Shown one piece after another: positions 35,379-60,729 of a stretch of DNA of 64,000 bases. The translations under genes and the position numbers were made by a program. Each line of letters begins with the position of its first letter. Positions within the stretch are counted from its first letter, which is position 1. The DNA comes from Rhodothermus bifroesti. Lineage in GTDB: Bacteria; Bacteroidota; Rhodothermia; Rhodothermales; Rhodothermaceae. The stretch is from assembly GCF_017908595.1 (NCBI RefSeq), contig NZ_JAGKTL010000001.1, forward strand, positions 124,001 to 188,000, written 5' to 3'. The notes under the pieces were generated by a model that saw nothing but the letters and a program-made list of their open reading frames with translations, was not told the origin of the DNA and searched no databases.

Positions 35379-35386
35379 ACATCCCT

Positions 35387-35905: not shown

Positions 35906-36003
35906 CGGTTGACTTTATCCTGCTAACCTCATAACGTACTTACAACTGCCTACTTTTTTTATACTTCATCTTGTAATTACATGTAAACCAACCTAAATGT
36001 GCC

Positions 36004-37458: not shown

Positions 37459-37466
37459 GATTAGCC

Positions 37467-38273: not shown

Positions 38274-38286
38274 GCTCATTACTGCC

Positions 38287-38619: not shown

Positions 38620-38634
38620 AGCTACACAGACGCT

Positions 38635-39204: not shown

Positions 39205-39209
39205 GCACT

Positions 39210-39566
39210 ATGTGGACGCGCCTACTGGAACGGCTGCGCCAGGCCTCGCCTACCGCAGCCCAAGAAACGTTACGCCCGGAGGTTTTTCTGCATCGCCGAC
39301 GCCCTGAAGATGTGATCATCGATGTGCGCACGCCTGCAGAATATCAGCAAGGACACCTAGAAGGGGCGTTGAACTTAGACCTTATGGCAGCAGACTTTCA
39401 CGCCAAAATTGCGCAACTTGACCCTAGCCGAACCTACTATCTTTACTGCCGTTCTGGTAACCGAAGCGGACAGGCCGCGCGCCTGCTTCGCCAACATGGC
39501 CTAGAAGCCTACAATATTGGCGGACTGGAAGACCTGGTCCGTGCCGGAGCACCCTTAGCACCCTGA
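39210..39566 (+). CDS. Single-domain rhodanese, cytosolic
   Basis: A 118-residue sulfurtransferase. The domain reads VIIDVRTPAEYQQGHLEGAL, then the active-site loop YCRSGNRSG with catalytic cysteine, then YNIGGLEDLVRAGAP. No signal peptide. It carries persulfide sulfur between donors such as thiosulfate or sulfane sulfur and thiols. It starts six bases after the haem lipoprotein gene. The next gene is a close relative with a lipoprotein signal. Confidence 0.92.
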   Translation: MWTRLLERLRQASPTAAQETLRPEVFLHRRRPEDVIIDVRTPAEYQQGHLEGALNLDLMAADFHAKIAQLDPSRTYYLYCRSGNRSGQAARLLRQHGLEAYNIGGLEDLVRAGAPLAP

Positions 39567-39579
39567 ACGCTGACTGACC

Positions 39580-40014
39580 ATGAAAACGCGCGCATTACCA
39601 TTGCTAGTAGTACTTATCCTTGGGCTAACGGCTTGCGCCAGTGAACGCCCCCAGACCTCAGTGTCGGTCGCCACTCGAGCTACCCCCGATACCACCGTCA
39701 TTTTGCGACTGACTGCTGAAGAATTCCTGGCGCGCTACACGCCCGAAACCGTTGTGATCGACGTACGCACGCCAGAAGAATTCGCTCAAGGACATCTCCA
39801 AGGCGCTCTAAACCTCAACGTACAAGCTCCCGACTTCCGGGAGCAGGTTGCAGCACTCCAGCTTAGTCCCGACCAGCCCGTATATCTCTACTGTCGCTCG
39901 GGCCGCCGCAGCCAGAGGGCCGCCGAGATCCTGCGCGAAATGGGCTTCCGTAAGCTGTACAACATCGGAGGGTTCGAAGACTTGGTACGCGCTGGCGCTA
40001 ACGTAGCGCCGTAG
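39580..40014 (+). CDS. Rhodanese-domain lipoprotein
   Basis: A 144-residue lipoprotein with lipobox LTAC (Cys19) and a spacer, then a rhodanese domain: VVIDVRTPEEFAQGHLQGAL, active-site loop YCRSGRRSQ, and YNIGGFEDLVRAGA. It closely resembles the preceding cytosolic rhodanese, including the C-terminal block, so a tandem duplication with a changed location is likely. It would handle sulfane sulfur in the periplasm next to the haem lipoprotein. Confidence 0.92.
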   Translation: MKTRALPLLVVLILGLTACASERPQTSVSVATRATPDTTVILRLTAEEFLARYTPETVVIDVRTPEEFAQGHLQGALNLNVQAPDFREQVAALQLSPDQPVYLYCRSGRRSQRAAEILREMGFRKLYNIGGFEDLVRAGANVAP

Positions 40015-40031
40015 AAGCCAGCACGTTTGCT

Positions 40032-40151
40032 ATGAGCGCCTTGCTTCCCCTAGAGCAAAACAACCCCAACCTGTGCTGCCTGACCAACGAAGCCCGCTTT
40101 GCAGCGCAAGGCCAGCTCCAGCGGTTAAAGCGTACGGTTGTGGCGCGATAA
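40032..40151 (+). CDS. Possible 39-residue protein
   Basis: A short open frame starting ATG at 40032 encodes a peptide beginning MSALLPLEQNNPNLCCLTNE and ending basic (KRTVVAR). It contains a CC pair. It fills most of the 188-base gap between the lipoprotein rhodanese and the methyltransferase genes. I do not recognise it and there is no ribosome-binding signal, but genes here generally lack one. It may be a real small protein, a gene remnant or chance. Confidence 0.3.
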   Translation: MSALLPLEQNNPNLCCLTNEARFAAQGQLQRLKRTVVAR

Positions 40152-40202
40152 GGGCGGTGTGAGGTAGACTGCTTAAAGCACAGCCAAGAGGCCTTAATAA
40201 AG

Positions 40203-40814
40203 ATGCACCCTGAGTTCTGGAACCAACGTTTTGGTGAAGCGGCCTTTTTCTACGGTACAGCGCCGAACGCTTTCCTAGCCGAGGTGGTACCGCTTTACCT
40301 CAAGCCGGAATGCGACGTGATTGAACTGGGTGCTGGTGAGGGCCGCAACGCAGTATGGCTGGCCTGCCAAGGCTTTCGGGTGACCGCAGTCGATTACGCT
40401 GAGGCTGGCCTAGAAAAAACGCGGCAGCTGGCCAGACAAGCTGGGGTTCAGGTAGAGACCATAGCCGCAGATGTAACGCGGTGGCATCCGCAGCGCACCT
40501 GGGATGCTGTAGTCATGACGTTTTTGCACCTGCCCCCGGATCAGCGTCCGACCCTCTACGCCTTAATAGAACGCATCCTGCGTCCCAAAGGCTATCTTAT
40601 TGCCGAGTGGTTCAGGCCTGAGCAGCGCACCGAAGGCTACCTGAGCGGTGGACCACCTGATCCGGCCTGGATGGTAACGGCCGAGGAGCTGCGCCGGTAT
40701 TTTGCTCCAGCCGGGATTTGCCTCCTAGAAAACGCCACGCCCGAACTAAACGAAGGCATAGGCCACCGCGGCCCAGCAGCTACGATCCGTCTGGTATGGC
40801 AACGCGTAGCCTAA
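40203..40814 (+). CDS. Class I SAM-dependent methyltransferase (TehB-like)
   Basis: A 203-residue cytosolic methyltransferase. The N terminus (FWNQRFGEAAFFYGTAPNAFL) and motif I (VIELGAGEGRNAVWLACQGF) are typical of the TehB/thiol methyltransferase group; AVDYAEAGLEK and VVMTFLHLPPDQR are motifs II and III-IV. Some relatives methylate tellurite, selenite or small thiols. Within a sulfide-handling island, methylation of a sulfur or chalcogen species is plausible but unproved. Its stop overlaps the opposing gene by four bases. Confidence 0.85.
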   Translation: MHPEFWNQRFGEAAFFYGTAPNAFLAEVVPLYLKPECDVIELGAGEGRNAVWLACQGFRVTAVDYAEAGLEKTRQLARQAGVQVETIAADVTRWHPQRTWDAVVMTFLHLPPDQRPTLYALIERILRPKGYLIAEWFRPEQRTEGYLSGGPPDPAWMVTAEELRRYFAPAGICLLENATPELNEGIGHRGPAATIRLVWQRVA

Positions 40815-41101
40815 AGGCAATGCGTGGGATCGTCGGGGTCCAAGTAGCAGGCGTCCGACTGAAACTGGCGATTCAACGTAACCTCATAGGCCAGTTCGTC
40901 CAAAAACGCCTGCACGGCTGGCATCCCCTCGTAACGCTGCGAACCTGCCTCAAGCACAGGCCAAGCCGCAGGGATCGATCCATCGGGCAGCGCGGCCCCT
41001 TCGGCAAGCCGCACTACCCGATGCGCCAGCACCAGCTCTCGAAGCTGCTCCTCGATAGCCCCACCTTCTGGGTCGTTAGCGTGTCGATAGAGCACAAGCA
41101 T
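40811..41101 (-). CDS. Small thioredoxin-like-fold protein without CxxC
   Basis: A 96-residue protein I do not recognise by name. The opening LVLYRHANDPEGGAIEEQLREL, then LAHRVVRL, IPAAWPVLEAGSQRYEGMPAVQAFLDELAYEV (quoted here as PVLEAGSQRYEGMP and AVQAFLDEL) has the beta-alpha-beta layout of a glutaredoxin or glutathione-transferase N domain, including a proline where the cis-proline would be, but the redox CxxC is missing. Two cysteines occur only near the C terminus (DACYLDP, THCL). Translation direction is opposite to its neighbours. It probably binds a thiol or acts as an adaptor; this is an inference. Confidence 0.6.
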   Translation of the reverse strand: MLVLYRHANDPEGGAIEEQLRELVLAHRVVRLAEGAALPDGSIPAAWPVLEAGSQRYEGMPAVQAFLDELAYEVTLNRQFQSDACYLDPDDPTHCL

Positions 41102-41178
41102 TTTTCTGCCTTGGCCAGCTATGTTTGGCTACAACTGACCCGTGCATAGGTTCTCTGCGTATCCAAACCCGATCACCC

Positions 41179-42300
41179 ATGCGACGACGCGTATGCATCA
41201 TTGGGGCTGGACCAGGGGGCTTAGCAGCTGCCCGGCGTCTGCGTGAACGCGCAGCCGATGCGTTGGAAATCGTGGTTATCGAACGCGATGGCACTGCCGA
41301 ATTTCTAGCAGGGACTATTGCTACCGCGCTTGGCGAGGCCCCGCCCAACCATTGGCGCACACCGGTACGCTTGCGTGGCATCGAAGTGCTCAAGACCCGT
41401 GCCCAGCAGGTTAGTGGCCAAGGCGTCGTATTGGCGGACGGCCGCACGCTAGAAGCCGACGCCGTCATTGCTGCCCCTGGCCTGCATTTAGACCTGGAAG
41501 CCGTCCCGCAACAACCGAATTTGTTTGCTTTTTGGAGTCCTAGCACGGCTCGAGCGGCCCATGAACCCATCGCTCAGCTGCACTCAGGCCATGTCGTAAT
41601 CGTGATTGCTGGCCTGCCTTACCGTTGCCCGCCTGCACCTTACAGTCTTGCCATGCAACTGGCAGCGTTTTATCGTCGCCAGCAACGCGATGTGCAGATC
41701 ACGCTTACAACGCCAGAACCAGTCCCATTGGCTTCGCTCGAGCACGGTATTCCTGAATTTCTGCTCCACGCTTGCGCTACGTCGGGTGTCGACGTCGTGC
41801 TGAACCGGCAGCCTGACTGGAGCGCCAGCACAGATCGACAAATCACCTTCACCGATGGCGCCCGGTTATCCTACGATCTAGCCCTGGTCATCCCACCGCA
41901 TACGCGATCCCCACTACTTACCTCTTTACCAGATGACGGTGTACTAGTAGCGGTAAACGAGCAGTTTGAAAGCGTGCAGTCGGGACTGTTTGTTGTGGGC
42001 GATGCCGCGCGTACGCTGCTGCCACGCGCTGCTGGGGCCGCTACTGCCCAGGGGATGACTGCCGCCGACGCCATCCTAGACCGCTTTGGTCTGGCCCGCT
42101 ATTCAGGACCCCACCTGCCAGCCCCAGAATGCTACATCGGCCACGGCGAAGGCCGCTACAGTCGCATCACGATCCGCTTTCCCAACGGCTTACCCCCCGT
42201 TGGCCAACCCGAAATCCAACGTGAAGGCCCTTCGGCGAAACTGGCTGCGGGTTTTGCCCGCGTATTTGACGAATGGCGCGCCCTGCGCACTGAGCTTTAG
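41179..42300 (+). CDS. SQR/FCSD-like FAD-dependent oxidoreductase
   Basis: A 373-residue flavoprotein. VCIIGAGPGGLAAARRLRER binds FAD and LFVVGDAART is the second FAD motif. The segment YRCPPAPYSLA (Cys150) is characteristic of the sulfide:quinone reductase and flavocytochrome c sulfide dehydrogenase superfamily. The C-terminal membrane-binding hairpin of true SQR is not evident. ATG 41179 is chosen since the FAD motif starts there. It converges with a genuine SQR-type gene with a four-base overlap. A role in sulfide or sulfane oxidation is likely; the electron acceptor is unclear. Confidence 0.8.
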   Translation: MRRRVCIIGAGPGGLAAARRLRERAADALEIVVIERDGTAEFLAGTIATALGEAPPNHWRTPVRLRGIEVLKTRAQQVSGQGVVLADGRTLEADAVIAAPGLHLDLEAVPQQPNLFAFWSPSTARAAHEPIAQLHSGHVVIVIAGLPYRCPPAPYSLAMQLAAFYRRQQRDVQITLTTPEPVPLASLEHGIPEFLLHACATSGVDVVLNRQPDWSASTDRQITFTDGARLSYDLALVIPPHTRSPLLTSLPDDGVLVAVNEQFESVQSGLFVVGDAARTLLPRAAGAATAQGMTAADAILDRFGLARYSGPHLPAPECYIGHGEGRYSRITIRFPNGLPPVGQPEIQREGPSAKLAAGFARVFDEWRALRTEL

Positions 42301-43511
42301 GCCTTCCCGCGCAGCATAAGATTCCAGTACATCCAAGGCAGCACGTATTTTTTGAGCAAGTACATCGAGCGCCGCTCCTTGGTGGTGTCGAATGGGAAGG
42401 AGGGCATAGGCCGGTTGTTGTAGTCGAATTCCGCCAGCACGAGCTTCCCATAGCCCGTTACAAGCGGGCATGAACTGTAGCCATTGTAATGCTTAGGGTG
42501 GATCAGCGCCCCATGCTCCCGAAGCTGCAGCAGGTTGTGCACTACCACAGGTGCCTGCTTGCGCACCGCTGCACCGGTTTTTGCATTTGGCGTGCTGGCA
42601 GCGTCGCCTAGAGCAAAAATGTTTGGATAGCGCACATGCTGCAGCGTATAGGGGTCTACTTCCACCCAGCCGTCTGCGCTGGCCACCTTGCTCTGCTTGA
42701 TAAAGTCCGGCGCGCTCTGCGGCGGCACCACATGCAGCATCTGGAACGAGAAAATCCGCTCTTCCAGCACCTGGCCTTTTTCATCCTTCAAGTGAAAGAC
42801 AGCCTCTTGCTTAGGGCCGCGCACTTCAGCTAAATCATGCCGAAAATGAAACTGAATGCCGTAGCGAGCAATGACTTTCTCCAGCGTTCGGGCAAATTCC
42901 GGAATGCCAAAGATGACCACGCCTGGTGAGAAAAAGTGTATCTCGACCTGATCTAAAATCCCACGGCGGCGCAAGTGATCGGCCGTCAGATACATGATTT
43001 TCTGAGGTGCTCCACCGCATTTAACCGGTGTTGGGGGCTGCGTAAAAAGTGCCCGGTCGCCAGGCTTAAGCTGTTGCATAACCTGCCAGGTATAAGGCGC
43101 CAGCTCATAGGCATAGTTGCTGGTCACGCCATAGCGGCCCAGCGATTCCTTTAGGCCAGGAATTTTATCCCAGTCGAGCTGAATCCCTGGTGCCAGTACT
43201 AAATAGTCGTAGTGGAGCGTACGTCCTGCGGCCGTCTGCACCGCATCGCGGTCCGGATCAAGGGCCACCACGCGATCTTGAATCCAGGTAGCGCCAGGCG
43301 GAATGTAGTCCGCTTCATTGCGCACAGAGGCTTCCGGTGGGAAAACACCTGCACCTACCAGTGTCCAGAGCGGTTGGTAGTAGTGCTTCACGGAAGGCTC
43401 AATAATGGCCACTTGTGGGGGATTTTTGGCGCGCCTTAGCTGGGCGGCTACCGTCAAACCTGCCGTACCCCCTCCCACAATAACCACTTCGTAGTGCGCT
43501 TGCTGTGTCAT
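42297..43511 (-). CDS. sqr: Sulfide:quinone oxidoreductase
   Basis: A 404-residue membrane-associated flavoprotein that oxidises sulfide to persulfide or sulfane sulfur and reduces quinone. FAD motifs: VVIVGGGTAGLTVAAQLRR and IFALGDAASTPNAKTGAAVR. Active-site cysteines: PVKCGGAPQKIMYL (Cys165) and NGYSSCPLVTGYGK (Cys348); the C terminus (KKYVLPWMYWNLMLRGKA) is an amphipathic membrane anchor. The pattern resembles the mitochondrial-type (type II) enzymes. The product would feed the persulfide dioxygenase in the same island. Confidence 0.94.
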   Translation of the reverse strand: MTQQAHYEVVIVGGGTAGLTVAAQLRRAKNPPQVAIIEPSVKHYYQPLWTLVGAGVFPPEASVRNEADYIPPGATWIQDRVVALDPDRDAVQTAAGRTLHYDYLVLAPGIQLDWDKIPGLKESLGRYGVTSNYAYELAPYTWQVMQQLKPGDRALFTQPPTPVKCGGAPQKIMYLTADHLRRRGILDQVEIHFFSPGVVIFGIPEFARTLEKVIARYGIQFHFRHDLAEVRGPKQEAVFHLKDEKGQVLEERIFSFQMLHVVPPQSAPDFIKQSKVASADGWVEVDPYTLQHVRYPNIFALGDAASTPNAKTGAAVRKQAPVVVHNLLQLREHGALIHPKHYNGYSSCPLVTGYGKLVLAEFDYNNRPMPSFPFDTTKERRSMYLLKKYVLPWMYWNLMLRGKA

Positions 43512-43633: not shown

Positions 43634-44350
43634 CTACAAAGGACGACGGGCGCGCACCTGAAGCGAGACAATGGGTCCTTCAACGGCAGCACGCGTCACG
43701 GCCTCGATGACCAAGCCAGCCATTTCAATGGCTGCTAGATAATCTGCTTCAGGAATTGTACCTGCCAAACAACGGGCATAGGCCTCTGGATCGTCTTCCC
43801 AATAGGCTGGTAGCGCACCTTGCCGCACCAAGTCAGCCACCAGCAACCATCCTCCTGGCCGAAGCACACGGAAGGCTTCAGCAAATGCACGCGCTTTATC
43901 TGGCACCAAGTTGATAACGCAGTTGGAAAGCACCACATCGACCGAACACTCTGGCAGCGGCAAAGCTTCAATATCTCCTTGCACAAAGGTGACATTGTGC
44001 AGGCCCACCTTTCGGGCATTCTCCTGTGCCAATGCTACCATCTCAGGTGTCAAATCCACGCCGATTACCCGACCTTCTGGTCCTACGTGCTGGGCTGCAA
44101 TCAGGCAGTCCATCCCTGCCCCAGAACCCAAGTCCAGCACGGTAGCCCCGCGGGGCAACGCTCCTAAAGCAAAAGGATTACCGCAACCAAGGCCCATTTG
44201 GGCTTCAACAGGTACGGAAGCCAACACCTCCTCCGCATAACCTGCAGCGCATCCACACGAGGAAGTGCAGCACGAGGTGCGCTCTTGTGCAATTTGGGCA
44301 TAATACGCCCGCACGGCTTCTTTGATGCGATCCGTTGTCATGGCTTTCAT
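43634..44350 (-). CDS. arsM: Arsenite methyltransferase
   Basis: A 238-residue SAM-dependent enzyme that methylates arsenite to less toxic or volatile forms. N-terminal cysteine cluster TSCCTSSCGCAAGYAEE, then LGCGNP, motif I VLDLGSGAGMDCLIAA, SNCVINLVPDK and ARCLAGTIPEADYLA. The conserved cysteines after motif I (144 and 194) are those that bind arsenic in the family. It overlaps the acetyltransferase gene by four bases (ATGA-type coupling). Confidence 0.95.
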   Translation of the reverse strand: MKAMTTDRIKEAVRAYYAQIAQERTSCCTSSCGCAAGYAEEVLASVPVEAQMGLGCGNPFALGALPRGATVLDLGSGAGMDCLIAAQHVGPEGRVIGVDLTPEMVALAQENARKVGLHNVTFVQGDIEALPLPECSVDVVLSNCVINLVPDKARAFAEAFRVLRPGGWLLVADLVRQGALPAYWEDDPEAYARCLAGTIPEADYLAAIEMAGLVIEAVTRAAVEGPIVSLQVRARRPL

Positions 44351-44814
44351 TGATGTTTATCGATGACTTCAGGCAAAAAAATGCGCATCACTTGGCTACT
44401 TGTGGGACACAAGTGCGTAAACTGTGACGCCTGTTGCACAGAGACCGGGACAACCTCGCGCGTGATGGCCTCAAAGCCCAGGCGGGCAAAAAAACCTGCA
44501 GCGGTTTCTGTAAGCAGAAACACCTGTTGCAAACCTTCCTGACGCGCTTCCTCGAGCATGGCTTCAACCAACCGCCGCCCAATTCCTTTACCCTGCCAGG
44601 CTGGATCTACCGCAACGGAGCGAAGCAATCCCCCTTCAGCGTACCGTTCCAGCAACGCCATGCCCACTACCTGGCCATGCATATACGCCACACGCACACG
44701 GTCCAGCTGCGCTGCAACCCCCTCTTCGGTAAGATGACAGATTTGCAAAAGATGGCGCAATGCCGGCCACGCGTCAGCGTGGGCCGGTAGCACCTGAATG
44801 GTTGGATGACTCAT
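44347..44814 (-). CDS. arsN2: GNAT acetyltransferase of arsenic operons (ArsN2-like)
   Basis: A 155-residue GCN5-type N-acetyltransferase. LLRSVAVDPAWQGKGIGRRL is the acetyl-CoA binding motif, and VFLLTETAAGFFARLGFEAI the C-terminal half. The family member next to arsM and arsR is usually called ArsN2 and is thought to acetylate an arsenic-containing or related amine substrate. The tail (TSSQVMRIFLP) fits. It sits between arsR and arsM. Confidence 0.85.
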   Translation of the reverse strand: MSHPTIQVLPAHADAWPALRHLLQICHLTEEGVAAQLDRVRVAYMHGQVVGMALLERYAEGGLLRSVAVDPAWQGKGIGRRLVEAMLEEARQEGLQQVFLLTETAAGFFARLGFEAITREVVPVSVQQASQFTHLCPTSSQVMRIFLPEVIDKHQ

Positions 44815-44849
44815 AGACGATCCTCAATGAGTTAATTGATAAAAAAAAT

Positions 44850-45179
44850 TTAAGCGGCTAAGCGCTGAAGCCACGCTCCTAAATCCTCAAGGACCTCAGG
44901 CTTAAGCTGATAATACGTGTACGGCCCGCGTACCTCTGCTATCACCAAGCCTGCCTCCCGCAGCCAACGCAAGTGGTGCGAAATCGTGGGCTGCTTCAGA
45001 TCAAAATGCGCCTCGATATCACATACGCACAAGGGTGCACCTTCCTGCGAGAGCAACGCCACCATTTGCAGCCGTACCGGATGCCCAAGTGCCTTGAGCT
45101 GCCGCACCCGCAAGCGCAGCACCTCTGCTGGCAAGCGTAAGGCACGCGTCGACTGACCACACGCTGAGGGTGACGACAT
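44850..45179 (-). CDS. arsR: ArsR-family arsenic-responsive repressor
   Basis: A 109-residue winged-helix repressor. The metal motif LCVCDIE in helix 3 (two cysteines, consensus ELCVCDL), then LKQPTISHHLRWLREAGLV and RGPYTYYQL. Binding of As(III) would release it from DNA. It is first in the arsR-arsN2-arsM operon; the 35 bases between it and arsN2 are AT-rich. The divergent gap upstream may hold its operator. Confidence 0.95.
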   Translation of the reverse strand: MSSPSACGQSTRALRLPAEVLRLRVRQLKALGHPVRLQMVALLSQEGAPLCVCDIEAHFDLKQPTISHHLRWLREAGLVIAEVRGPYTYYQLKPEVLEDLGAWLQRLAA

Positions 45180-45354: not shown

Positions 45355-45771
45355 ATGCGCCAGAGCTTTGGGCAGCGACTGATCGCAAGTGGCCTTATGC
45401 TGCTCTTTTTGGGGCAGCAGGTGCCGCTGGTGATTTCGTTACCTGAGCTTCAGGCGCCTGTTGTCTGTCATCATCGGGAAGCTGACCTAGTTCCTGGCAT
45501 AGTTGCCTGTCCGCATCACAGTTCTACCCCCCAAGCGAAGGTAAGCGTGCATGTAGCTGGTCTTGGCGAAATTGCGCTGCTGGTGTGCAATTGCCGCCAC
45601 GATGCCCCGGCACACGTTTTTACCCTAGTGATCGATCGGTGGGTCCTTCCTCGAGCGTGCAGTTTAGCTTGTCCGGAAGGCAGACCGTTTGAGCTGCTTC
45701 CCGGTGAGGAAATGGTGCTTGCGCTTCGCCTTGCGGTAGACATTTTCCATCCCCCTCGTCTGGTTGGTTAG
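45355..45771 (+). CDS. Small Cys/His-rich secreted or membrane-anchored protein
   Basis: A 138-residue protein with a hydrophobic N-terminal segment (LIASGLMLLFLGQQVPLVIS) that is a signal or anchor. The mature part has spaced metal-ligand-like motifs: VCHHREAD, ACPHHSS, VCNCRHDAPAH and RACSLACPEG. Such CxH/CHH motifs are typical of copper- or zinc-handling periplasmic proteins, for example DUF2946-like genes next to TonB receptors; I do not recognise the family. ATG 45355 is chosen as the signal begins there; an upstream GTG-type extension is AT-rich and improbable. First gene of a three-gene set. Confidence 0.65.
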   Translation: MRQSFGQRLIASGLMLLFLGQQVPLVISLPELQAPVVCHHREADLVPGIVACPHHSSTPQAKVSVHVAGLGEIALLVCNCRHDAPAHVFTLVIDRWVLPRACSLACPEGRPFELLPGEEMVLALRLAVDIFHPPRLVG

Positions 45772-45772
45772 G

Positions 45773-45789
45773 CAGCTGCTTAGCAGCTG
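45773..45789 (+). other. Intercistronic hairpin after the Cys/His-rich gene
   Basis: CAGCTGC-TTA-GCAGCTG, a perfect 7-base stem with a triloop, starts two bases after the stop codon. No T run follows, so it is not a classical terminator; it may protect the 3' end of the upstream message. Confidence 0.5.
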
Positions 45790-45884
45790 GCCATGCAGAT
45801 GGTGCTTGCTGCTGCCTTTTGCACGGCAGAAGGGTCTAGGTATGCCCACTATCTCGAAAACCCATCAGACGAGACAGTTGTGTC

Positions 45885-48182
45885 ATGCGATACTTCCTGT
45901 TTGCCCTAGGGCTGCTGGGACTATTGGCTTCAGCACACGCCCAGTCTACAGCCATTTTGGAAGGCAACGTACGCGTTGCTGGTACGGCGACGCCGCTTCA
46001 AGGCGCCCATGTCATCCTTGAGGAACTGGCTCAAGGTACTACAACCGACGCCAAGGGACGTTTTCAGCTAGCGAATCTGCCAGCAGGAACGTACACGCTA
46101 ACGGTACGCTTTTTAGGTTTTGTGCCTTACCGCCAGGCCATTCTCCTCCAAGCAGGTGTAACAACGCAGCTTACGATCATCTTGGAAGAGCAAACCGTAA
46201 GTCTGGGGGAAATTGTGGTAGCAGCCAGCGGTTTGCCTCAGTCTCGGACGGATGTAGCGGCCTCTGTGGGCTTATTGCGCCAAGAGGCGATGGCATCGGT
46301 TGGGGCTTTGCACCCGGCTGAGCTTCTTAATCGACTGGCTGGGGTATGGTTGATGACGCCTACGGGTGAAGGCCATCTGACGGCCATCCGCCAACCGCTC
46401 ACGACCGAGCCGGTCTATTTGTACTTGGAAAATGGGGTTCCCATTCGCTCGACCGGCTTTTTCAATCATAATGCCCTCTATGAAGTCAACTTGCCCCAGG
46501 CTGAAGCGGTCGAAGTGATTAAAGGCCCGGGAACGGCACTCTACGGTAGCGATGCTATTGGGGCAGTGGTCAACGTCTCTACGCCACCCGCGCCAGATCG
46601 CCCGTTGCTGCAAGGAAAAGTGGAAGGGGGTTCCTACGGCTATGGCCGCGCGCTTCTTAGCGCCGGCACGCGCATTGGCGCGCATCGCGTGCGGATGGAT
46701 GCCAACGTGACCCGTACAGACGGTTGGCGCGAGGCTACACGCTATGCACGCCAAAGCGTCGTAGCGCGCTGGGACTGGGGTCGGGCAGGTAACCGTGCAC
46801 GCCTAAGCACGGTTGTATCTTTTTCCCACATTGATCAAAATCCTGCCGGATCTTCAGCCCTCTCGGCCGAAGATTTTGAGCGCAATCCACGCCTAAACTA
46901 TACGCCTATCTCTTACCGCCGCGTCTGGGCGTTTCGGCTTTCTGCGGCCTATGCTTACCAGACAGCACGCAGCCGGCTAGAGCTGACGCCTTACGTGCGC
47001 TACAACATCACCGAATTGCTGCCCAATTGGTCGCTGGCCTTTGATCCAGCTATCTGGGATCTGCGGCATCGGTCGCTGGGCTTGATGGTTCGCTATCACC
47101 ATGAACTGCAGCCCGAGCGCCTTCGGCTCACCAGCGGTATCGACCTGGAAAGCAGTCCCGGAAGCCACTTTGAGCAGCGCGTGCGCGCAACGCGACAAGG
47201 CAAAATCTTTACTGCCTACACCCTTGCTGATACACTCTACGACTACTACGTGACGTTTTGGCAAGCAGCACCCTATGCCCAGCTCGAAGTGCGGCCGCTG
47301 CAGCCATTGGAGTTCAGCCTGGGTTTACGCTTGGATTGGGCACGCTACGACTACGACAATCGGCTCAGCGTCGTTACCACAGGCCGCCACCGCCGCGCCC
47401 CGGATACCAGCCGTGCGTTTGTACACGCCAGTCCTAAACTTGGATGGGTGTACCGGCTAGATCGTAGTCTGACGCTTTTTGGTTCTTATCGCCACGCTTT
47501 CCGCGTGCCTTCGGAGGGACAGCTTTTCCGACAGGGCGCGACGTCCAATACGACCCATCTAGCGCCTGTACGGGCCGATCAGTTTGAGCTAGGCATTCGC
47601 GGGGCCTTGTGGTCCGATTGGCTAGCTTATGAACTGGTAGGCTATCAGCTTGAAAAACGGAACGACATCGTTTCGTACGTTGATGCCCAGGGGGTTAGCC
47701 AAGTAGGCAATGTGGGCCGTACGCGCCACCGCGGCCTGGAGCTTTCACTGCGTCTTAAGCCGACGGAAGCCTTCCAGCTTGAGGCTGCTTGGTCCTATAC
47801 CGGCCAGTGGTATGTCTCTTGGGAAACAGCCCCTCAAAGCAATCTCAGTGGAAACGAACTTGAGCTCGCGCCGCGCGTGCTGGCCAGCCTGGTTTTAAGC
47901 TACACGCCCTCCTTTTGGAGAGGAAGTCTGCTCCTCTTCGAGTGGCGCCGCGTGGGGTCCTACTGGATGGACGCAGCCAACACCGTACGCTACGAGGGCT
48001 ATCACGTGGCAAATATGCGGCTTAACCTACCGCTACATAGCCGGGTAAGCCTCTCCGGGCGCGTGCTGAATTTATGGAATCGGCGCTACGCCGAGCGTGC
48101 CACCTATCATCCGGTACGCGGATCCGAGCTCTCTCCGGCCATGCCGCGCAGCATTTACCTAAGCCTGCAATACCACTTTTAA
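45885..48182 (+). CDS. TonB-dependent receptor, putative metal or metallophore uptake
   Basis: A 765-residue outer-membrane transporter: signal peptide (cut near SAHAQ), carboxypeptidase-regulatory-like domain (EGNVRVAGTATPLQGAHVIL, NLPAGTYTLTVRFLGF), plug (PVYLYLENGVPIRSTGFFNH, EVIKGPGTALYGSDAIGAVV) and a barrel ending in LSLQYHF. The plug lacks the long loops seen in SusC-type sugar receptors. The neighbours on both sides are Cys/His-rich exported proteins, so the cargo is more likely a metal ion or chelate than a sugar; this is inference. It is the middle gene of the set. Confidence 0.88.
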   Translation: MRYFLFALGLLGLLASAHAQSTAILEGNVRVAGTATPLQGAHVILEELAQGTTTDAKGRFQLANLPAGTYTLTVRFLGFVPYRQAILLQAGVTTQLTIILEEQTVSLGEIVVAASGLPQSRTDVAASVGLLRQEAMASVGALHPAELLNRLAGVWLMTPTGEGHLTAIRQPLTTEPVYLYLENGVPIRSTGFFNHNALYEVNLPQAEAVEVIKGPGTALYGSDAIGAVVNVSTPPAPDRPLLQGKVEGGSYGYGRALLSAGTRIGAHRVRMDANVTRTDGWREATRYARQSVVARWDWGRAGNRARLSTVVSFSHIDQNPAGSSALSAEDFERNPRLNYTPISYRRVWAFRLSAAYAYQTARSRLELTPYVRYNITELLPNWSLAFDPAIWDLRHRSLGLMVRYHHELQPERLRLTSGIDLESSPGSHFEQRVRATRQGKIFTAYTLADTLYDYYVTFWQAAPYAQLEVRPLQPLEFSLGLRLDWARYDYDNRLSVVTTGRHRRAPDTSRAFVHASPKLGWVYRLDRSLTLFGSYRHAFRVPSEGQLFRQGATSNTTHLAPVRADQFELGIRGALWSDWLAYELVGYQLEKRNDIVSYVDAQGVSQVGNVGRTRHRGLELSLRLKPTEAFQLEAAWSYTGQWYVSWETAPQSNLSGNELELAPRVLASLVLSYTPSFWRGSLLLFEWRRVGSYWMDAANTVRYEGYHVANMRLNLPLHSRVSLSGRVLNLWNRRYAERATYHPVRGSELSPAMPRSIYLSLQYHF

Positions 48183-48194
48183 TGCACCCTGCAA

Positions 48195-48226
48195 GGTGGG
48201 GCGCTGGTTTAGCCAAGCGCCCCACC
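48195..48226 (+). terminator. Strong hairpin after the TonB receptor gene
   Basis: GGTGGGGCGCT pairs with AGCGCCCCACC (11 bases, extendable inward with one bulged A). It starts 12 bases after the stop. There is no T tract (CGCTTATG follows), so it may be a weak terminator or an RNA-stabilising stem that lowers expression of the next gene. Confidence 0.45.
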
Positions 48227-48251
48227 CGCTTATGACACAGCGTTTACGATC

Positions 48252-49502
48252 ATGAAATCCTTGAAGCTTGCGCTTGCTGGCTTGTTGCTGGGAGCGGGGT
48301 GTTCCAGCACAGGGCCTTCTGGGCTTAGGCCATACGATTTTCAAGTCATACGTCTGGACAGTGGTCGCGTAGGTGCAATCACCACAGCGATCGATCCCCA
48401 AACGCACACGATCTATTGGAGCTGGGCGGCTATGCGGGATAGCCTGGTGGATATTTACCTGTCGCGCATGGCTCCCGGCGATACGGCCCCTTCGCCACCG
48501 GTACGGGTTCATCCACAGCGAGGGCTAGGGAATCTGCATACCCAAGCACCGCCCCAAGTCCGGGTAGGCCCTGATGGCACAGTTTACGTGCTGTGGAGCA
48601 GCCGCATTCCGGTCCCTGGACGACGGTTTCCGGCCAGCAACCTGTACCTGGTGCGATCGACTGACCAAGGCCAAACCTTTGCACCACCCTGTTTGGTAAA
48701 CGACGACGCGGAAGGGCCGCCTTCAAGCCATACCTTTCACGACTTAGCTATTGGACGTGAGGGCATCGTGTACGTCTCTTGGATTGATGCCCGTCGGCTG
48801 GATGCCCAGCGCTCTGCAGAAACCCACAGGCACCATCACGAAACCTCATCTGCTGGTCCTGACATTCGCGTAGCTCGCTCTACCGACGGCTGCACGTTTA
48901 GTCCTGGCGTTATTGTAGATTCGACCAGTTGCCCTTGCTGCCGCACAGCGCTCACGATCGATGCCCAGGGCGGGCTCTACGTTGCCTGGCGCAAGGTCTT
49001 TCCAGGCAACGTGCGCGACATTGTGGTGGCTGTATCACGCGACAGAGGACAGACATTCTCCCAGCCAGTGCGCGTCCAAACCGACGGCTGGGTGCTTGAC
49101 GGCTGCCCACATGTGGGGCCAAGCTTGGCCGTCGATGATCGGCAACAACTGCATGTAGCTTGGTATACCGGAGCCCCTGAGCGAACAGGCATCTGGTATC
49201 GCCGCTTGAGCCCCCAGCTGCGCCCTGTCTTGGCAGCCCAACCGCTTGCTCAGGTCCTACCCATAGCCCAAATGCGGCTAGCTTGGGATACGTACCAGAT
49301 GTGGGCAGCGTGGGAAGCGCCTACGAAGGGACAAGTGCGCCTGCAAGTTTTTTCCAAAACGGCGTTTCCAGACACAACGCAGGCGCTGAGTTTTATGGGT
49401 AGGAATCCTGCGTTGGCCGCAGTGGACGGCTGGGTTGTGCTGGCCGTGGAAACTGAGCAAGACGTGCGTGCCTATATTAAACGCCCTGCGGCCAAACCCT
49501 AA
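48252..49502 (+). CDS. Sialidase-fold lipoprotein with CPCC and HRHHH motifs
   Basis: A 416-residue lipoprotein (lipobox GAGC, Cys17). The body is a beta-propeller of BNR type with Asp-box-like turns: RSTDQGQTF, RSTDGCTF, SRDRGQTF. The catalytic arginine and tyrosine set of true sialidases is not evident. Unusual metal-ligand-type motifs sit on loops: THRHHHE (191-197), TSCPCCRTA (225-233) and GCPHVG (284-289). These suggest that the propeller binds a soft metal such as copper rather than a sugar. It ends the three-gene set and is followed by a strong hairpin. The specific function is unknown. Confidence 0.75.
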   Translation: MKSLKLALAGLLLGAGCSSTGPSGLRPYDFQVIRLDSGRVGAITTAIDPQTHTIYWSWAAMRDSLVDIYLSRMAPGDTAPSPPVRVHPQRGLGNLHTQAPPQVRVGPDGTVYVLWSSRIPVPGRRFPASNLYLVRSTDQGQTFAPPCLVNDDAEGPPSSHTFHDLAIGREGIVYVSWIDARRLDAQRSAETHRHHHETSSAGPDIRVARSTDGCTFSPGVIVDSTSCPCCRTALTIDAQGGLYVAWRKVFPGNVRDIVVAVSRDRGQTFSQPVRVQTDGWVLDGCPHVGPSLAVDDRQQLHVAWYTGAPERTGIWYRRLSPQLRPVLAAQPLAQVLPIAQMRLAWDTYQMWAAWEAPTKGQVRLQVFSKTAFPDTTQALSFMGRNPALAAVDGWVVLAVETEQDVRAYIKRPAAKP

Positions 49503-50056: not shown

Positions 50057-50644
50057 ATGAACCCTTCACGTCTTCCTTTAGCAGCGGTGCTGTGCTGGCT
50101 GCCCATCCTCGTGCTCACAGCGCCTGCTTCAGCACTGGCCCATACGGGGTTGACACCAACCACAAGCTGGGGCTACGGCTTGCTACATCCGCTCACCGGC
50201 CTAGATCACTTGCTAGCTGCAGTGGGGGTGGGTTTATGGGCTGCCTTGCAGGCACATGTTCTTGCACGCCGCTTACTGTTCGTTTTTTTGAGCATGCTCC
50301 TGGTCGGACTACCGCTTGGAGCTGCTTGGCCCACGGAGACCACCGAATGGAGCGTGCTGGCTTCGGTGCTGCTTTTGGGCACAATGCTGGTTTTGGTGTC
50401 TCGCCCACCTGCTGCAGTTAGTCTACTGCTTATTGCGCTGTTTGGTTTGCTACACGGACACGTCCACGGCACCGAAATCCTGCCTGAGACGGGCTGGGCT
50501 TATGCCCTTGGATGGATGCTTGCCACAGGCCTGTTAACCTTTACGGGCTACGCGATCGGACGCTTGCTGCACCACCGACAGGTGGTTGGCGTTTTTCGGC
50601 TTGCCGGTTTCATGCTTATTGGGGCGATGATTGCCCTGCTTTAA
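50057..50644 (+). CDS. hupE: HupE/UreJ family nickel permease
   Basis: A 195-residue membrane protein of the HupE/UreJ family, which takes up nickel for hydrogenase or urease. Signal-like N terminus (cut near ASALA), then the hallmark HTGLTP and LLHPLTGLDHLLAAVG, five or six further hydrophobic segments and a His pair in FGLLHGHVHGTEIL. The hypB gene begins five bases after its stop, so both serve nickel supply for the hydrogenase at 56-61 kb. No urease gene is in the window. Confidence 0.92.
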   Translation: MNPSRLPLAAVLCWLPILVLTAPASALAHTGLTPTTSWGYGLLHPLTGLDHLLAAVGVGLWAALQAHVLARRLLFVFLSMLLVGLPLGAAWPTETTEWSVLASVLLLGTMLVLVSRPPAAVSLLLIALFGLLHGHVHGTEILPETGWAYALGWMLATGLLTFTGYAIGRLLHHRQVVGVFRLAGFMLIGAMIALL

Positions 50645-50648
50645 AAAT

Positions 50649-51305
50649 ATGGAGCCTACGCTAAAAATCATCCAGGTAGCGCGCCGCGTGCAGGCCGATA
50701 ACAACGCCTTAGCCCAGGCGCTACGTGAGCAGTTCGACAAGGCCGGCGTGCGCGTGCTTAACTTGATTGCTGCCCCAGGGGCGGGCAAAACCAGTTTGAT
50801 TGCTCGGACGCTGGAGCAGCTTGGCCGGCGCCTGCAAATTGGCGTGCTGGAAGGCGACATTGCCGGTAGCATCGATACCCAAAAGGTCCTTCAGGCCGGC
50901 GCCCGTGATGCCGTACAGATCAACACGGGTGGAACCTGCCATTTAGAAGCCCGCATGGTTGCCGAAGCCCTTGGCCAACTTGAACTGGAGGCGCTCGACT
51001 TACTCTTTATCGAAAACGTCGGCAATCTTATTTGCCCAACCCACTGGGATTTAGGCGCGCACTATACGGTATGCATCGTCAGCGCTGCCGAAGGGCACGA
51101 CAAGCCACTCAAATATCCAGCTATTTTTGTTCGGAGCGATGCGATTGTACTCAATAAAATCGACTTAGCCCCGCTATGTGGTTTTGACCACGATCAGTTC
51201 TACCTCCACCTCAGAGCCCTTACCCAAGCCCCGGTTTTTGAGCTCTCCTGTCGCACGGGTGAAGGTTTGGCGTCGTGGATTACTTGGTTAACCAATGTAT
51301 TGTAA
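50649..51305 (+). CDS. hypB: Hydrogenase/nickel-insertion GTPase HypB
   Basis: A 218-residue GTPase that delivers nickel to the hydrogenase large subunit. P loop APGAGKTS (42-49), VGVLEGDIAG-like switch region (GVLEGDIAGSIDT), nickel-site GGTCHLEA (Cys and His), ENVGNL, and the NKID motif (VLNKIDLAP). The N-terminal CxxCGC high-affinity site and the His-rich stretch of many HypB proteins are absent. The ATG at 50649 is chosen; a TTG at 50631 inside hupE would add six residues. Confidence 0.95.
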   Translation: MEPTLKIIQVARRVQADNNALAQALREQFDKAGVRVLNLIAAPGAGKTSLIARTLEQLGRRLQIGVLEGDIAGSIDTQKVLQAGARDAVQINTGGTCHLEARMVAEALGQLELEALDLLFIENVGNLICPTHWDLGAHYTVCIVSAAEGHDKPLKYPAIFVRSDAIVLNKIDLAPLCGFDHDQFYLHLRALTQAPVFELSCRTGEGLASWITWLTNVL

Positions 51306-51477
51306 TACAAAAATTACCCACAAACTTTTGCCCTTCTATTCACATCTATTTCGACAGATCGCTTTTCTCAAGCGCAACAACTTCTCGATTTTATAGTCAG
51401 TAATTCTGGCGACTCCAAGACGCCTCTTTAGAGGCGGGGCAGCGCCGTACGAAGTACTGTTAACCTAAAGCTGTGCT
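51306..51477 (+). promoter_or_regulatory. Leader region of the 2-oxoacid oxidoreductase operon
   Basis: 172 bases without a gene. TATAGT at 51392-51397 is a plausible -10 but no -35 fits, which would suit an activator-dependent promoter. Two perfect short stems follow: CGCCTC-TTTA-GAGGCG (51421-51436) and GTAC-GAA-GTAC (51447-51457). ACCTAAAGCT (51463-51472) lies six bases before the start codon and is the reverse complement of a block in front of the hydrogenase operon. Confidence 0.35.
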
Positions 51478-52857
51478 ATGGAAGCCATCGCTAACTTTCG
51501 TACGGTTTTTGAAGAAGAGCGCCCCCGCCTGACGGATGTTGCAGCGCTACTGGAGGCTTCGCGTTGTCTGGAATGTGGGCGTGATGGGCGGCCGGCCCCT
51601 TGCATTGAGGCTTGTCCTACCCGCATTGATATTCCCGGTTTTATTCGGGCTATTCGTGAAGGCGACCCGCTGACCTCAGCGCGAATCATTTTCGAGGCGA
51701 ACGTGCTAGGGGGAAGCTGCGCGCGCGTCTGTCCGGTGGAAGCGCTTTGCGAAGGTGCTTGCGTGCTCACGCACGAGAAACGCCGGCCGGTAGCTATTGG
51801 CCGTCTGCAACGCTACGCAACCGACGCTGCGTTTGCAGCGGGTATCGCCCTCCATCCTCCCCGCCGGCAGGCTCAGCTACCGCTCAGCGTAGGCGTTATT
51901 GGAGCTGGCCCGGCCGGACTGGCCTGTGCTGCAGAGCTGGCTCGTTTGGGTCATGAAGTCACCGTTTATGAAGCCCGCTCAGAGCCAGGAGGGCTAGTCG
52001 TTTCGGCCATTGCACCCTACAAACAGATGGTCGAGCCGATTCCCCAGGAAGTTGAAGCCATCCGAGCGCTAGGCGTCACCTTCTGCTTTAACACCAGCAT
52101 AGGGGAAGATCTTTCGTTTGCTGAATTGGAATCGCGGCATGATGCCCTGTTTTTAGCAGTGGGCTTAGATGGGGATATGCCGCTTGAAATCGCAGGAAGC
52201 GACCTGGAAGGCGTTTGGCCTTCCCTACGCTTCATCGAACGCCTAAAGGCCATGGATCCGCCACCGATAGGCGAAAACGTTGTGGTGATCGGTGGCGGCA
52301 ACACGGCAATCGACGTGGCCCGTGAAGCGGTGCGTCTAGGAGCGCGGCACGTCACCGTGCTTTACCGTCGCACGGAAGCTGAAATGCCGGCTTTCCGGCA
52401 CGAGGTGGAAGCTGCACGGGACGAGGGTGTGCAGTTTGAATGGCTTACGCTACCGGTACGTCTGCTGGGGGAGGTGCGCGTTTCGGGGGTTGAATGTGTC
52501 CGAACGCGCCTGGTGCCTGATCCTTCCGGTGGGCGTCCGCGACCGCAAGTCGTCGAAGGCACCGAGTTTGTTTTGCCAGCCGATACAGTAGTCTTTGCTA
52601 TTGGGCAACAACCACGCACCAATCTGCTGGCCACGATCCCAGACCTTCGCATAGAGCAAGGGCGCGTGTGGGTGGATGAGCATTTTCAGACCAGCCATCC
52701 ACGACTGTTTGCTGGCGGCGATTGCGTCAATGGCGGTGCTACCGTAGTCGAGGCTGTAGCGCAGGGCAAGCGGGCGGCCCATGCTATTGCCCAACGTATT
52801 CAGCCCTTAGAAAGTCGGCCTAGGCCGATGACCGACCGAAAAGAGACCCTACAATGA
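51478..52857 (+). CDS. GltD-like NAD(P)-dependent iron-sulfur flavoprotein
   Basis: A 459-residue protein of the glutamate synthase small-subunit/NfnB/SudA superfamily. The N-terminal cysteine region (CLECG, CIEACPTRIDIPGF, CARVCP, CEGACV) binds two [4Fe-4S] clusters; GVIGAGPAGLACAAELARLG binds FAD; VVVIGGGNTAIDVAREAVRLG binds NAD(P); FAGGDCVNGGATVVEAVAQG is the second FAD block. It overlaps the oxidoreductase gamma-delta gene by four bases. It likely shuttles electrons between ferredoxin and NADP(H); it is not the glutamate synthase subunit, since no gltB is present. Confidence 0.85.
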   Translation: MEAIANFRTVFEEERPRLTDVAALLEASRCLECGRDGRPAPCIEACPTRIDIPGFIRAIREGDPLTSARIIFEANVLGGSCARVCPVEALCEGACVLTHEKRRPVAIGRLQRYATDAAFAAGIALHPPRRQAQLPLSVGVIGAGPAGLACAAELARLGHEVTVYEARSEPGGLVVSAIAPYKQMVEPIPQEVEAIRALGVTFCFNTSIGEDLSFAELESRHDALFLAVGLDGDMPLEIAGSDLEGVWPSLRFIERLKAMDPPPIGENVVVIGGGNTAIDVAREAVRLGARHVTVLYRRTEAEMPAFRHEVEAARDEGVQFEWLTLPVRLLGEVRVSGVECVRTRLVPDPSGGRPRPQVVEGTEFVLPADTVVFAIGQQPRTNLLATIPDLRIEQGRVWVDEHFQTSHPRLFAGGDCVNGGATVVEAVAQGKRAAHAIAQRIQPLESRPRPMTDRKETLQ

Positions 52858-53783
52858 ACATGCTGGAAATTCGCTGGCACGGACGTGGTGGCCAAGGGGC
52901 CATCACTGTATCCAAAATCCTGGCGCTGGCTGCTTTACGCAGTGGCAAATATGCCCAGGCCTTTCCGGAGTACGGTCCGGAACGCAGCGGCGCCCCCGTA
53001 CGTGCCTACAACCGGATCGACGATCGGCCTATTGTACTGCATTCGGGCGTCTACACGCCACAGCGTGTGGTGGTGCTGGACGAGACGCTGCTGGAGGCCG
53101 AAGACGTATGCGAAGGATTGGCACCAGATGGCGCTTTGGTGCTCCATACCCATCGTTCGCCCGAACTCATCCGAGAGCAAACAGGCTATGCCGGACGCAT
53201 CGTGTGCGTCGATGCCGCAACGATTGCTGAAAGCACCGGTGCCCGCTTTGCTAACGTGCCGCTGCTAGGCGCCTTAGCCAGCACACTGGATTTTCTGCCG
53301 CTGGCCACGCTGGAAGAAGCGCTACGCACCTTCCTGGGTAAACGTCGGCCCGAAGTGGTTGCGGCCAACATCGAGGCGCTGCGTCGCGGCTACGCAGAGA
53401 CAGCAACGCTAGAGGCCATTGTACCCGATAGCCTGCCGCTTCGCCCCCGTCCCGAAGGGGCACGGATGCTGCTGCCGTATCACAAGCTGCCCATAGGGGG
53501 CGTTATCACGCCCGAAATTCGTTGGTTTCCCAAAACCGGTGGCTGGCGTAACGAACGGCCGGTTTTCCACGAAACGCTTTGCGTCAACTGCCTGCTCTGC
53601 TGGGCTCATTGCCCAGAACCGGCCATCCTGGTACACAACCGTCGGATGGAAGGGATCAACTATGACTACTGCAAAGGCTGTGGCATTTGCGCGACCTCAT
53701 GCCCCACAGGGGCGCTCAGCATGGTCCCGGAAAACACAGCTGAACCGGTCGTCGTCGCCGCAACCGCACACAACCCTGGATAA
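52854..53783 (+). CDS. 2-oxoacid:ferredoxin oxidoreductase, fused gamma and delta subunits
   Basis: A 309-residue protein. Residues 1-185 are the gamma domain (RWHGRGGQGAITVSKILALA, YAQAFPEYGPERSGAPV); about 220-295 is the delta ferredoxin domain with two cluster motifs, CVNCLLCWAHCPEP and CKGCGICATSCPTG. Together with the next two genes it forms a four-domain pyruvate or 2-oxoacid oxidoreductase that reduces ferredoxin. Fused gamma-delta is a common arrangement. It starts within the end of the flavoprotein gene. Confidence 0.92.
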   Translation: MNMLEIRWHGRGGQGAITVSKILALAALRSGKYAQAFPEYGPERSGAPVRAYNRIDDRPIVLHSGVYTPQRVVVLDETLLEAEDVCEGLAPDGALVLHTHRSPELIREQTGYAGRIVCVDAATIAESTGARFANVPLLGALASTLDFLPLATLEEALRTFLGKRRPEVVAANIEALRRGYAETATLEAIVPDSLPLRPRPEGARMLLPYHKLPIGGVITPEIRWFPKTGGWRNERPVFHETLCVNCLLCWAHCPEPAILVHNRRMEGINYDYCKGCGICATSCPTGALSMVPENTAEPVVVAATAHNPG

Positions 53784-53787
53784 AGCT

Positions 53788-54990
53788 ATGGCCCTTGGCG
53801 TCATTCCGCGGCTTGAAGCTGCCCAACTGCTCACCGGCGCACAGGCGGTTGCCCACGCTATGCGCCAGATCGAACCCGACGTCGTGCCGGTCTATCCGAT
53901 TACGCCACAAACTCCAATTGTTGAGGAGTTTGCGCAGATGGTTGCTGATGGCCGCTGCGACACCGAGATCATCAACGTCGAATCGGAGCATTCGGCCATG
54001 AGTGCAGCCATCGGCGCCTCGGTAGCCGGTGCACGGGTAATGACGGCCACAGCTTCGCAAGGCCTGGCCTTAATGATTGAAGTCCTCTACATCGCTGCTT
54101 CGATGCGCTGCCCGATCGTGATGCCCCTAGGCAACCGAGCCCTCAGCGGACCCATCAATATTCACTGTGACCACTCCGATGCTATGCTGGCCCGCGACTC
54201 GGGTGCTGTCCAGATCTTCACCGAAAATGGCCAAGAGGCCTACGATTACACGCTGATGGCTGTGCGCTTGGCAGAAGATGAACGGGTACGATTACCTGTG
54301 CTGGTGAACCTGGACGGCTTTACACTTACGCACTCGGCTGAGGCTGTCGAGCTGCTAGCCGACGAGGTAGCACGTGCGTTTGTGGGACGCTACCGTCCGC
54401 ACTATCCCTTGTTGGACACAAGGCGACCCACAACGCAAGGGCCTTTCGACATGCCCGATTTCTACTACGAACACAAGCGTCAGCAAGATGAAGCCCTACG
54501 GAGCGTATTAACCGTCTTTCCTGAAGTGCAGCACGCCTATGCCGAGGCCACAGGGCGCAACTATCTGGGCTACTACGAAGCCTATTGCCTTGAAGATGCG
54601 GATTTTGCCCTGGTCGTCCTAGGATCGACCGCAGGTACGGCCAAAGCGGTCGTTGAGGCGCTGCGCGAGGAAGGCCAGCGCGTAGGTTTGCTGAAGCTTT
54701 GGCTCTTTCGCCCCTTCCCACACGCAGCTGTAGCCAACGCCCTGCGCGGCAAGCAGGCCGTAGCTGTCATGGACCGGGCGTTATCGTTTGGCAGCTGGGG
54801 ACCACTTTACACGGAAATGGCGGCTGCACTTTACGGACTACCCGAGGCCGAACGTCCCCAATTGTACAACTTTACCTATGGTCTGGGGGGGCGAGATGTG
54901 ACGCCTGACCAGATCGCGGAAGCCTTCAGACGTATCCAAGACCCGCGTACGCCCACGCAACACATGCATTACTTGGGTGTACGCGCTTAA
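53788..54990 (+). CDS. porA: 2-oxoacid:ferredoxin oxidoreductase alpha subunit
   Basis: A 400-residue subunit: YPITPQTPIVEEFAQMVADG (thiamine-binding partner domain), ESEHSAMSAAIGASVAGARV, TASQGLALMIEVLYIAASMR and the C-terminal domain VLGSTAGTAKAVVEALREEG, DRALSFGSWG. This is the PorA type, pyruvate being the likeliest substrate (GNRALSGPINIHCDHSDAM). ATG 53788 lies four bases after the previous stop. An in-frame extension upstream overlaps the gamma-delta gene in another frame and is not protein-like. Confidence 0.94.
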   Translation: MALGVIPRLEAAQLLTGAQAVAHAMRQIEPDVVPVYPITPQTPIVEEFAQMVADGRCDTEIINVESEHSAMSAAIGASVAGARVMTATASQGLALMIEVLYIAASMRCPIVMPLGNRALSGPINIHCDHSDAMLARDSGAVQIFTENGQEAYDYTLMAVRLAEDERVRLPVLVNLDGFTLTHSAEAVELLADEVARAFVGRYRPHYPLLDTRRPTTQGPFDMPDFYYEHKRQQDEALRSVLTVFPEVQHAYAEATGRNYLGYYEAYCLEDADFALVVLGSTAGTAKAVVEALREEGQRVGLLKLWLFRPFPHAAVANALRGKQAVAVMDRALSFGSWGPLYTEMAAALYGLPEAERPQLYNFTYGLGGRDVTPDQIAEAFRRIQDPRTPTQHMHYLGVRA

Positions 54991-55007
54991 AGCTGGGAGC
55001 CTCGACC

Positions 55008-56018: not shown

Positions 56019-56060
56019 CGTTACGTAAACTAGATTGCCAGAAACGACTGCATGTAATTT

Positions 56061-56076
56061 AGCTTTAGGTAAAGCT
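56061..56076. promoter_or_regulatory. Palindrome in the hydrogenase operon leader
   Basis: AGCTTTAGGTAAAGCT, seven-base arms around GG. It is 57 bases upstream of the first hydrogenase gene, downstream of a possible -35 TTGCCA (56035-56040), and would overlap the expected -10 region. It may be a regulator site. A second palindrome, TTACGTAA, is at 56021-56028. Confidence 0.4.
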
Positions 56077-56132
56077 TTGTCGAGACAGGACCGTGAGGGG
56101 GCATCAAGGTTCATCTTAAACCGTTAAGCCCT

Positions 56133-57763: not shown

Positions 57764-57768
57764 AACCT

Positions 57769-58638: not shown

Positions 58639-58641
58639 ACC

Positions 58642-60727: not shown

Positions 60728-60729
60728 AG

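Follow-up and report, generated by a model that had tools for sequence, protein, structure and literature searches.

A candidate copper-import operon in Rhodothermus bifroesti, with a putative copper-sensing leader peptide and a four-cysteine propeller

Three adjacent genes of Rhodothermus bifroesti, specifying a small exported protein rich in cysteine and histidine, a TonB-dependent receptor (TBDT) and a propeller of the sialidase fold, raise the question of what is taken up through the receptor and what its two companions contribute. They lie within a 64,000-nucleotide stretch of contig NZ_JAGKTL010000001.1 (positions 124,001 to 188,000, forward strand), referred to here as the window; the genome measures 2.88 Mb, and whole genomes were searched for relatives. 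An earlier note on this DNA had described three co-directional genes and proposed that they acquire a metal, copper or another soft one. The open reading frames, read directly, are as described: they occupy positions 45355-49502, all on the plus strand, with intergenic gaps of 113 nt (small ORF/TBDT) and 69 nt (TBDT/propeller). Their features are collected in Table 1.

Table 1. Positions of the features discussed, numbered from the first letter of the window.
Feature	Position	Strand	Remarks
arsR-arsN2-arsM operon	43634-45179	-	ArsM-type and ArsN2 models above NCBIfam cut-offs
Small exported Cys/His ORF	45355-45771	+	138 aa; read directly from ORFs
Tail codons (D)IFHPPRLVG, candidate translation-arrest site	45742-45768	+	H132-P133-P134 at 45748-45756; arrest putative
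Predicted leader RNA structure	45755-45873	+	codons P134-V137 (45755-45765) can pair with 45858-45873, just 5' of the TBDT start
TBDT, IRQP/FNHN plug subfamily	45885-48182	+	765 aa
Plug His164 (GEGH)	46374-46376	+	invariant, six-row subfamily alignment
Plug His195 (FNHN)	46467-46469	+	invariant, six-row subfamily alignment
Sialidase-fold propeller, possible lipoprotein	48252-49502	+	416 aa
C227-P-C229-C230 (CxCC) codons	48930-48941	+	sequence, alignment
C285-P286 (CP) codons	49104-49109	+	sequence, alignment

The set is divergent to arsR (44850-45179, minus strand), as the earlier note had said, but that gene heads a divergent arsR-arsN2-arsM arsenic operon, and no ArsR homologue is labelled beside other propellers in the neighbourhoods displayed, so that divergent ArsR regulation was rejected as a conserved feature, though ArsR may still co-regulate the genes in this strain. 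At positions 34812-43511 are genes for YeeE/YedE-like transporters, an MBL-rhodanese protein, a TauE-like permease and two sulfide:quinone-reductase-like flavoproteins; by eye, this region has the look of an island for the uptake and oxidation of sulfur, the flavoproteins alone having been scanned. Downstream of the three genes (50057-63825) are genes for HupE, a HypB-like GTPase, and 2-oxoacid oxidoreductase-type, NiFe-hydrogenase-type and HypF-like proteins, among which no link to copper was seen.

The earlier note had tied its reading to the three families occurring together elsewhere, and they do. Of 394 genomes of the phylum, 11 have a cassette of small Cys/His ORF, TBDT with the FNHN plug motif and four-cysteine propeller, and the cassette recurs in Gemmatimonadetes; a related set with a different TBDT is found in Nitrospirota. 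The FNHN TBDT occurs in 33 of the 394 genomes, and 12 carry the CPCC-type propeller, defined by a profile score exceeding 300 bits; both are found in 11, always adjacent (hypergeometric P 3e-12, an optimistic value because six cassette members were the source of the TBDT profile). Five cassettes outside that profile (G249, G122, G379, G354 and G330) show the same adjacency. In the 33 genomes with an FNHN TBDT, the next cassette gene is a propeller in 11, a PepSY_TM gene in 20, neither in two and both in none; seven of the 20 PepSY_TM calls were confirmed with Pfam and the rest with a profile for which six of those seven were used, and one of the 20 genes is separated from its TBDT by inserted genes. 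At L170:2431-4570, an FNHN TBDT is separated from its PepSY_TM gene by small toxin-antitoxin-like genes. In genome G239 the TBDT is followed by a thioredoxin-ankyrin fusion and not by a propeller or PepSY_TM gene (L136:4451-5653), and the propeller sits elsewhere, between TlpA and CopC (L034). A profile search found no PepSY_TM match in the window genome; two congeners without the cassette have some, and some propeller genomes keep PepSY_TM genes elsewhere. Heme-copper oxidase genes are present in 11/11 propeller-cassette genomes, and also in the two congeners. The genes of surveyed loci were called by a simple ORF picker, and their starts may be misplaced; the genomes are a sample of the groups, and the archaeal loci do not count as independent observations.

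The same gene order, with a small exported Cys-containing ORF ending in a C-terminal xPP followed by a TonB receptor, is known from the cruR-crtA(bfrG)-crpH operon of Bordetella pertussis (PMC9426467, PMC12914433, PMC13038864). CruR, in which 45 residues separate the CXXC from the RAPP motif, is a nascent-chain copper sensor controlling the TBDT operon (PMC9426467), and arrest at its RAPP has been demonstrated in vitro (PMC12992588). CrtA was characterised in 2026 (PMC12914433), and the role of CrpH as a reductase is itself a proposal (PMC13038864). The PepSY_TM gene of the 20 relatives is a crpH-like third gene, whereas the third gene in the window specifies the four-cysteine propeller. The view that no described system has this make-up thus needs qualifying: the operon plan matches that of Bordetella, although no described system with a cysteine propeller in third place was found.

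The propeller model (AlphaFold2, pLDDT 86.8, pTM 0.87) was placed by Foldseek and VIA-align among sialidase-type and other propellers at 8-16% identity, in agreement with the fold first recognised from the sequence. Its motifs include TSCPCCRT, HRHHHE and GCPH, and Cys17 is a possible lipobox cysteine. Four cysteines, C227, C229, C230 and C285, are all present in 67 of 70 aligned relatives and all absent in the other three, and R247, R255, D256 and W304 are also nearly invariant across the 70. The HRHHHE stretch, earlier taken for a ligand motif, carries no conserved signal, since about 60% of relatives have a gap at its HRHHH loop; it was rejected as a copper site. Sequence and DSSP place CPCC immediately ahead of the first strand of one blade and CP in the equivalent position of the adjacent blade, so that the two may converge near the axis on one face of the modelled propeller.

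The protein resembles GH33 sialidases in its sialidase-type beta-propeller with Asp-box-like repeats, but differs in the low identity of its structure matches and in having a cysteine cluster, with no conserved catalytic motif seen. The GH33 catalytic set comprises the FRIP Arg, an Arg triad, Tyr/Glu and Asp; the RIP of the window protein is not kept in relatives. Curated Pfam sialidase cut-offs were missed (BNR_2, 20.6 bits against 31.4; BNR, 18.5 against 27), and a PDB sequence search with the window propeller returned chance antibody matches only, while a search with the family profile retrieved sialidases, weakly. Could the propeller still be a sialidase-superfamily enzyme acting on an organic ligand, for example by stripping a copper chelator or modifying a glycan, with its cysteines in structural disulfides? 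In favour are the matched folds, which include those of glycosidases, lyases and CylK, and the conserved R247, R255, D256 and W304. We consider this unlikely in view of the low identity and sub-threshold BNR scores, the four cysteines being kept or lost together, and the TlpA/DsbD reductants encoded beside the propeller gene in several groups, which point to thiols kept reduced.

Propeller relatives were detected by HMM search in 102 of the 394 genomes of the phylum, and a scan of named genomes added Gemmatimonadetes, Nitrospira, Nitrospinaceae, Nitrosospira, Nitrococcus and Nitrosopumilus, many of them nitrifiers. The family is widespread and undescribed, its members being labelled sialidases in annotations and papers; our literature search, of open-access papers, found none that treats this propeller as a copper protein. 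Some genomes carry several copies. In Nitrococcus (L081:7827-11112), two adjacent propellers, one with four cysteines and one with none, are arranged around a TlpA gene, and it is possible that they form a heteromeric pair. One archaeal locus (L186:7524-19331) has three CxCC-type propellers within 10 kb, one of them split over two ORFs, followed by TlpA-DsbD.

The small ORF begins with a hydrophobic N terminus, contains CHH, CPHH, CNC and CSLAC motifs, and ends in the tail IFHPPRLVG. Sequence similarity between equivalents is nearly nil, and a similarity search recovered relatives in only 2 of 60 genomes, one of them weak; after this failure, equivalents were traced by position and tail. Common to them are a hydrophobic N terminus, the presence of Cys or His, an xPP tail and, in 25 equivalents, the position of the window ORF as the first gene before the TBDT. 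The xPP lies within the last 11 residues in 26/26 equivalent small ORFs; the corresponding figure for other ORFs of 90-200 aa is 6%. The tail is RGPP in same-order relatives, and RAPP or RGPP at Nitrospirota-type loci; in most Bacteroidota it is F[HRQ]PP, of which the FHPP of the window is a case. The distance from cysteines to tail is near-constant inside each group: exactly 47 to the RGPP in five same-order relatives, 41-48 from the last two cysteines in five Nitrospirota-type ORFs, mostly 62-66 in other Bacteroidota, and 52/50 both in the window (from CNC, not CXXC) and in Gemmatimonadetes L062. Loss of similarity with retention of the xPP tail and of its spacing from the cysteines fits a nascent-chain sensor, and by analogy we regard the small ORF as a probable copper-sensing leader peptide of the CruR/CutF kind.

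The likeness has its limits. The exact C-terminal RAPP motif is not present in the window ORF, and hmmscan gave no match to DUF2946 (Pfam PF11162), the family that sets CruR apart from it, either in this ORF (E up to 1) or in two Nitrospirota-type small ORFs (E up to 0.1). CutF of Rhodobacter capsulatus is likewise a nascent protein that is exported, carries a Cys motif and has a Pro-rich tail, and it controls a downstream copper gene via mRNA structure, but that gene is a multicopper oxidase, activation takes place with copper present, and CutF falls in DUF2946, to which the window ORF gave no match (PMC9973294). The RAPP/RGPP arrest peptides likewise combine a C-terminal xPP with a secretion signal and a location upstream of TonB-receptor or copper genes (PMC12992588), and their exact RGPP recurs in the same-order relatives of the window. 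The survey that described them reported copper-related uORFs to be missing from Bacteroidota (PMC12992588); the F[HRQ]PP form would escape it because the survey used RAPP/RGPP.

The earlier note had taken the small ORF for a Cys/His-rich metal protein, and a variant of this would keep the copper operon as proposed but make the product a real periplasmic metal-binding protein or chaperone, whose Cys/His residues carry copper to the propeller. Its Cys/His richness, export signal and operon position are all compatible with such a role. Against it, similarity is nearly absent between equivalents whose xPP tail and Cys-to-tail spacing are kept, and CruR and CutF are both leaders; we rate this alternative as quite unlikely, and a regulatory leader as the better account.

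Folding of the leader RNA gave a mixed picture. In the window the predicted structure is more stable than all shuffled sequences (z -2.98; 0/200 as stable), but pairing of the PP codons with the TBDT start site was reached by 37/200 shuffles, a weak and non-significant result, and shuffle tests were not significant in most F[HRQ]PP relatives either. Within the RGPP set this helix was matched by 0/200 shuffles in L032, 7/200 in L033, 6/200 in L063, 20/200 in L065 and 3/100 in L108 (Fisher P 2e-4 without L108). A PP-codon/start-site helix common to all leaders was therefore rejected: it is upheld in the same-order RGPP set, but neither in the window nor among the F[HRQ]PP ORFs.

The receptor, with CarbopepD_reg_2, Plug and TonB_dep_Rec_b-barrel domains (Pfam), belongs to a subfamily marked by the plug motifs IRQP and FNHN, and is a candidate Cu-chelate importer. 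This subfamily and the closest solved structures, which are PqqU transporters (E 7.7e-56), appear to distinguish it from CrtA. The 732-aa 9rvq, which is probably CrtA, matched at E 1.4e-37, and the match leaves unaligned the region with CrtA W265-R395 (the CrtA site being Y130, W265, E337, Q356, H358 and R395). The OprC-type model TIGR01778 was not among the best 25 of 29 NCBIfam matches, which reach down to E 3e-4.

The identity of the metal is suggested by what lies beside other propellers. The neighbours are TlpA and CopC at L034, SCO1 at L039, and HMBD or HMA proteins at L046, L121 and L124; the gene at L124 is an HMA P-type ATPase, and at L120 an HMBD P-type ATPase lies three genes away. 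A PepSY_TM-type cassette (L131) also includes an HMBD protein. In archaea the propeller adjoins TlpA fused to DsbD, and in one ammonia-oxidising archaeon (L187) CopC-CopD follows two genes further on. TlpA-type genes account for 22/273 near genes and 4/537 far genes, counted over propeller loci that are not independent, and many propeller relatives in the phylum have no copper gene within two genes. Nitrososphaera viennensis has a cluster with a 'sialidase', DsbD and copC/D that is induced by copper limitation (PMC7785015). By its described gene labels this cluster resembles L187, with its propeller, TlpA-DsbD and CopC-CopD, and differs from the window cassette in having no TonB receptor, the organism being an archaeon. 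A ccd-type protein of N. franklandianus lies beside two sialidases that are expressed in biofilms and were read as matrix-modifying (PMC12448741, 2025); the CxCC propellers of archaeal genome G665 are arranged in the same way.

The copper-gene neighbours and the N. viennensis induction make copper the favoured and, by gene association, best-supported metal, and comparative genomics (CopC, CopC-CopD, SCO1, HMA/HMBD and TlpA-DsbD neighbours) lends good support to the earlier proposal of metal acquisition and to copper as the probable metal. That the cassette serves another metal or cofactor (zinc, an iron-siderophore, nickel, arsenic-linked thiol chemistry or PQQ), with its copper neighbours there by chance, is the least probable of the alternatives: the PqqU structures, the PepSY_TM proteins best known as ferrisiderophore reductases, the adjoining ars operon and the many propellers without a copper neighbour speak for it, but CopC, CopC-CopD, SCO1 and the HMA and HMBD ATPases recur in several groups, the leader resembles copper sensors, the putative archaeal equivalent is induced by copper limitation, and arsR was not seen beside the other propellers displayed.

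With somewhat better than even confidence, we propose that the three genes form a copper-scavenging and import operon, comprising a copper-sensing leader, a TBDT gate and a four-cysteine propeller that receives the copper. By analogy with CruR, the nascent leader would stall the ribosome at its C-terminal FHPP when copper is scarce, and copper bound by its Cys/His motifs would release the stall, so that the downstream genes would be expressed under copper limitation. Passage of a Cu(II) chelate through the outer membrane would be the task of the TBDT, whose two invariant plug histidines are candidate ligands. The propeller would be periplasmic, possibly lipid-anchored, and its CxCC and CP four-cysteine site would take copper as Cu(I), either by reducing the chelate or by accepting copper already reduced. 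It would then hand the metal to cuproenzyme assembly, most likely that of heme-copper oxidases, and so would fill the place of the PepSY_TM protein CrpH in Bordetella.

A broader reading is offered tentatively, and on balance we doubt it. The CxCC/CP propellers, generally annotated as sialidases, may be a class of copper proteins, exported and so far unrecognised, that ranges from Bacteroidota to nitrifiers and ammonia-oxidising archaea, acting as four-thiolate Cu(I) acceptors or as thiol-driven Cu(II)-chelate reductases fed by TlpA/DsbD. They would replace the PepSY_TM reductase in TonB-dependent copper import, the Bacteroidota operons being under new F[HRQ]PP copper-sensing arrest peptides. 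The operon proposed for the window is, by itself, a candidate second solution to copper import, with a soluble third component instead of a membrane protein, and with it copper-sensing leader peptides would extend to Bacteroidota, where the RAPP/RGPP survey found none tied to copper genes (PMC12992588). The operon also suggests a function for the many proteins that annotations call sialidases, among them those of ammonia-oxidising archaea, where the genes adjoin TlpA-DsbD and, in one genome, CopC-CopD; the sialidase labels on such archaeal proteins deserve re-reading.
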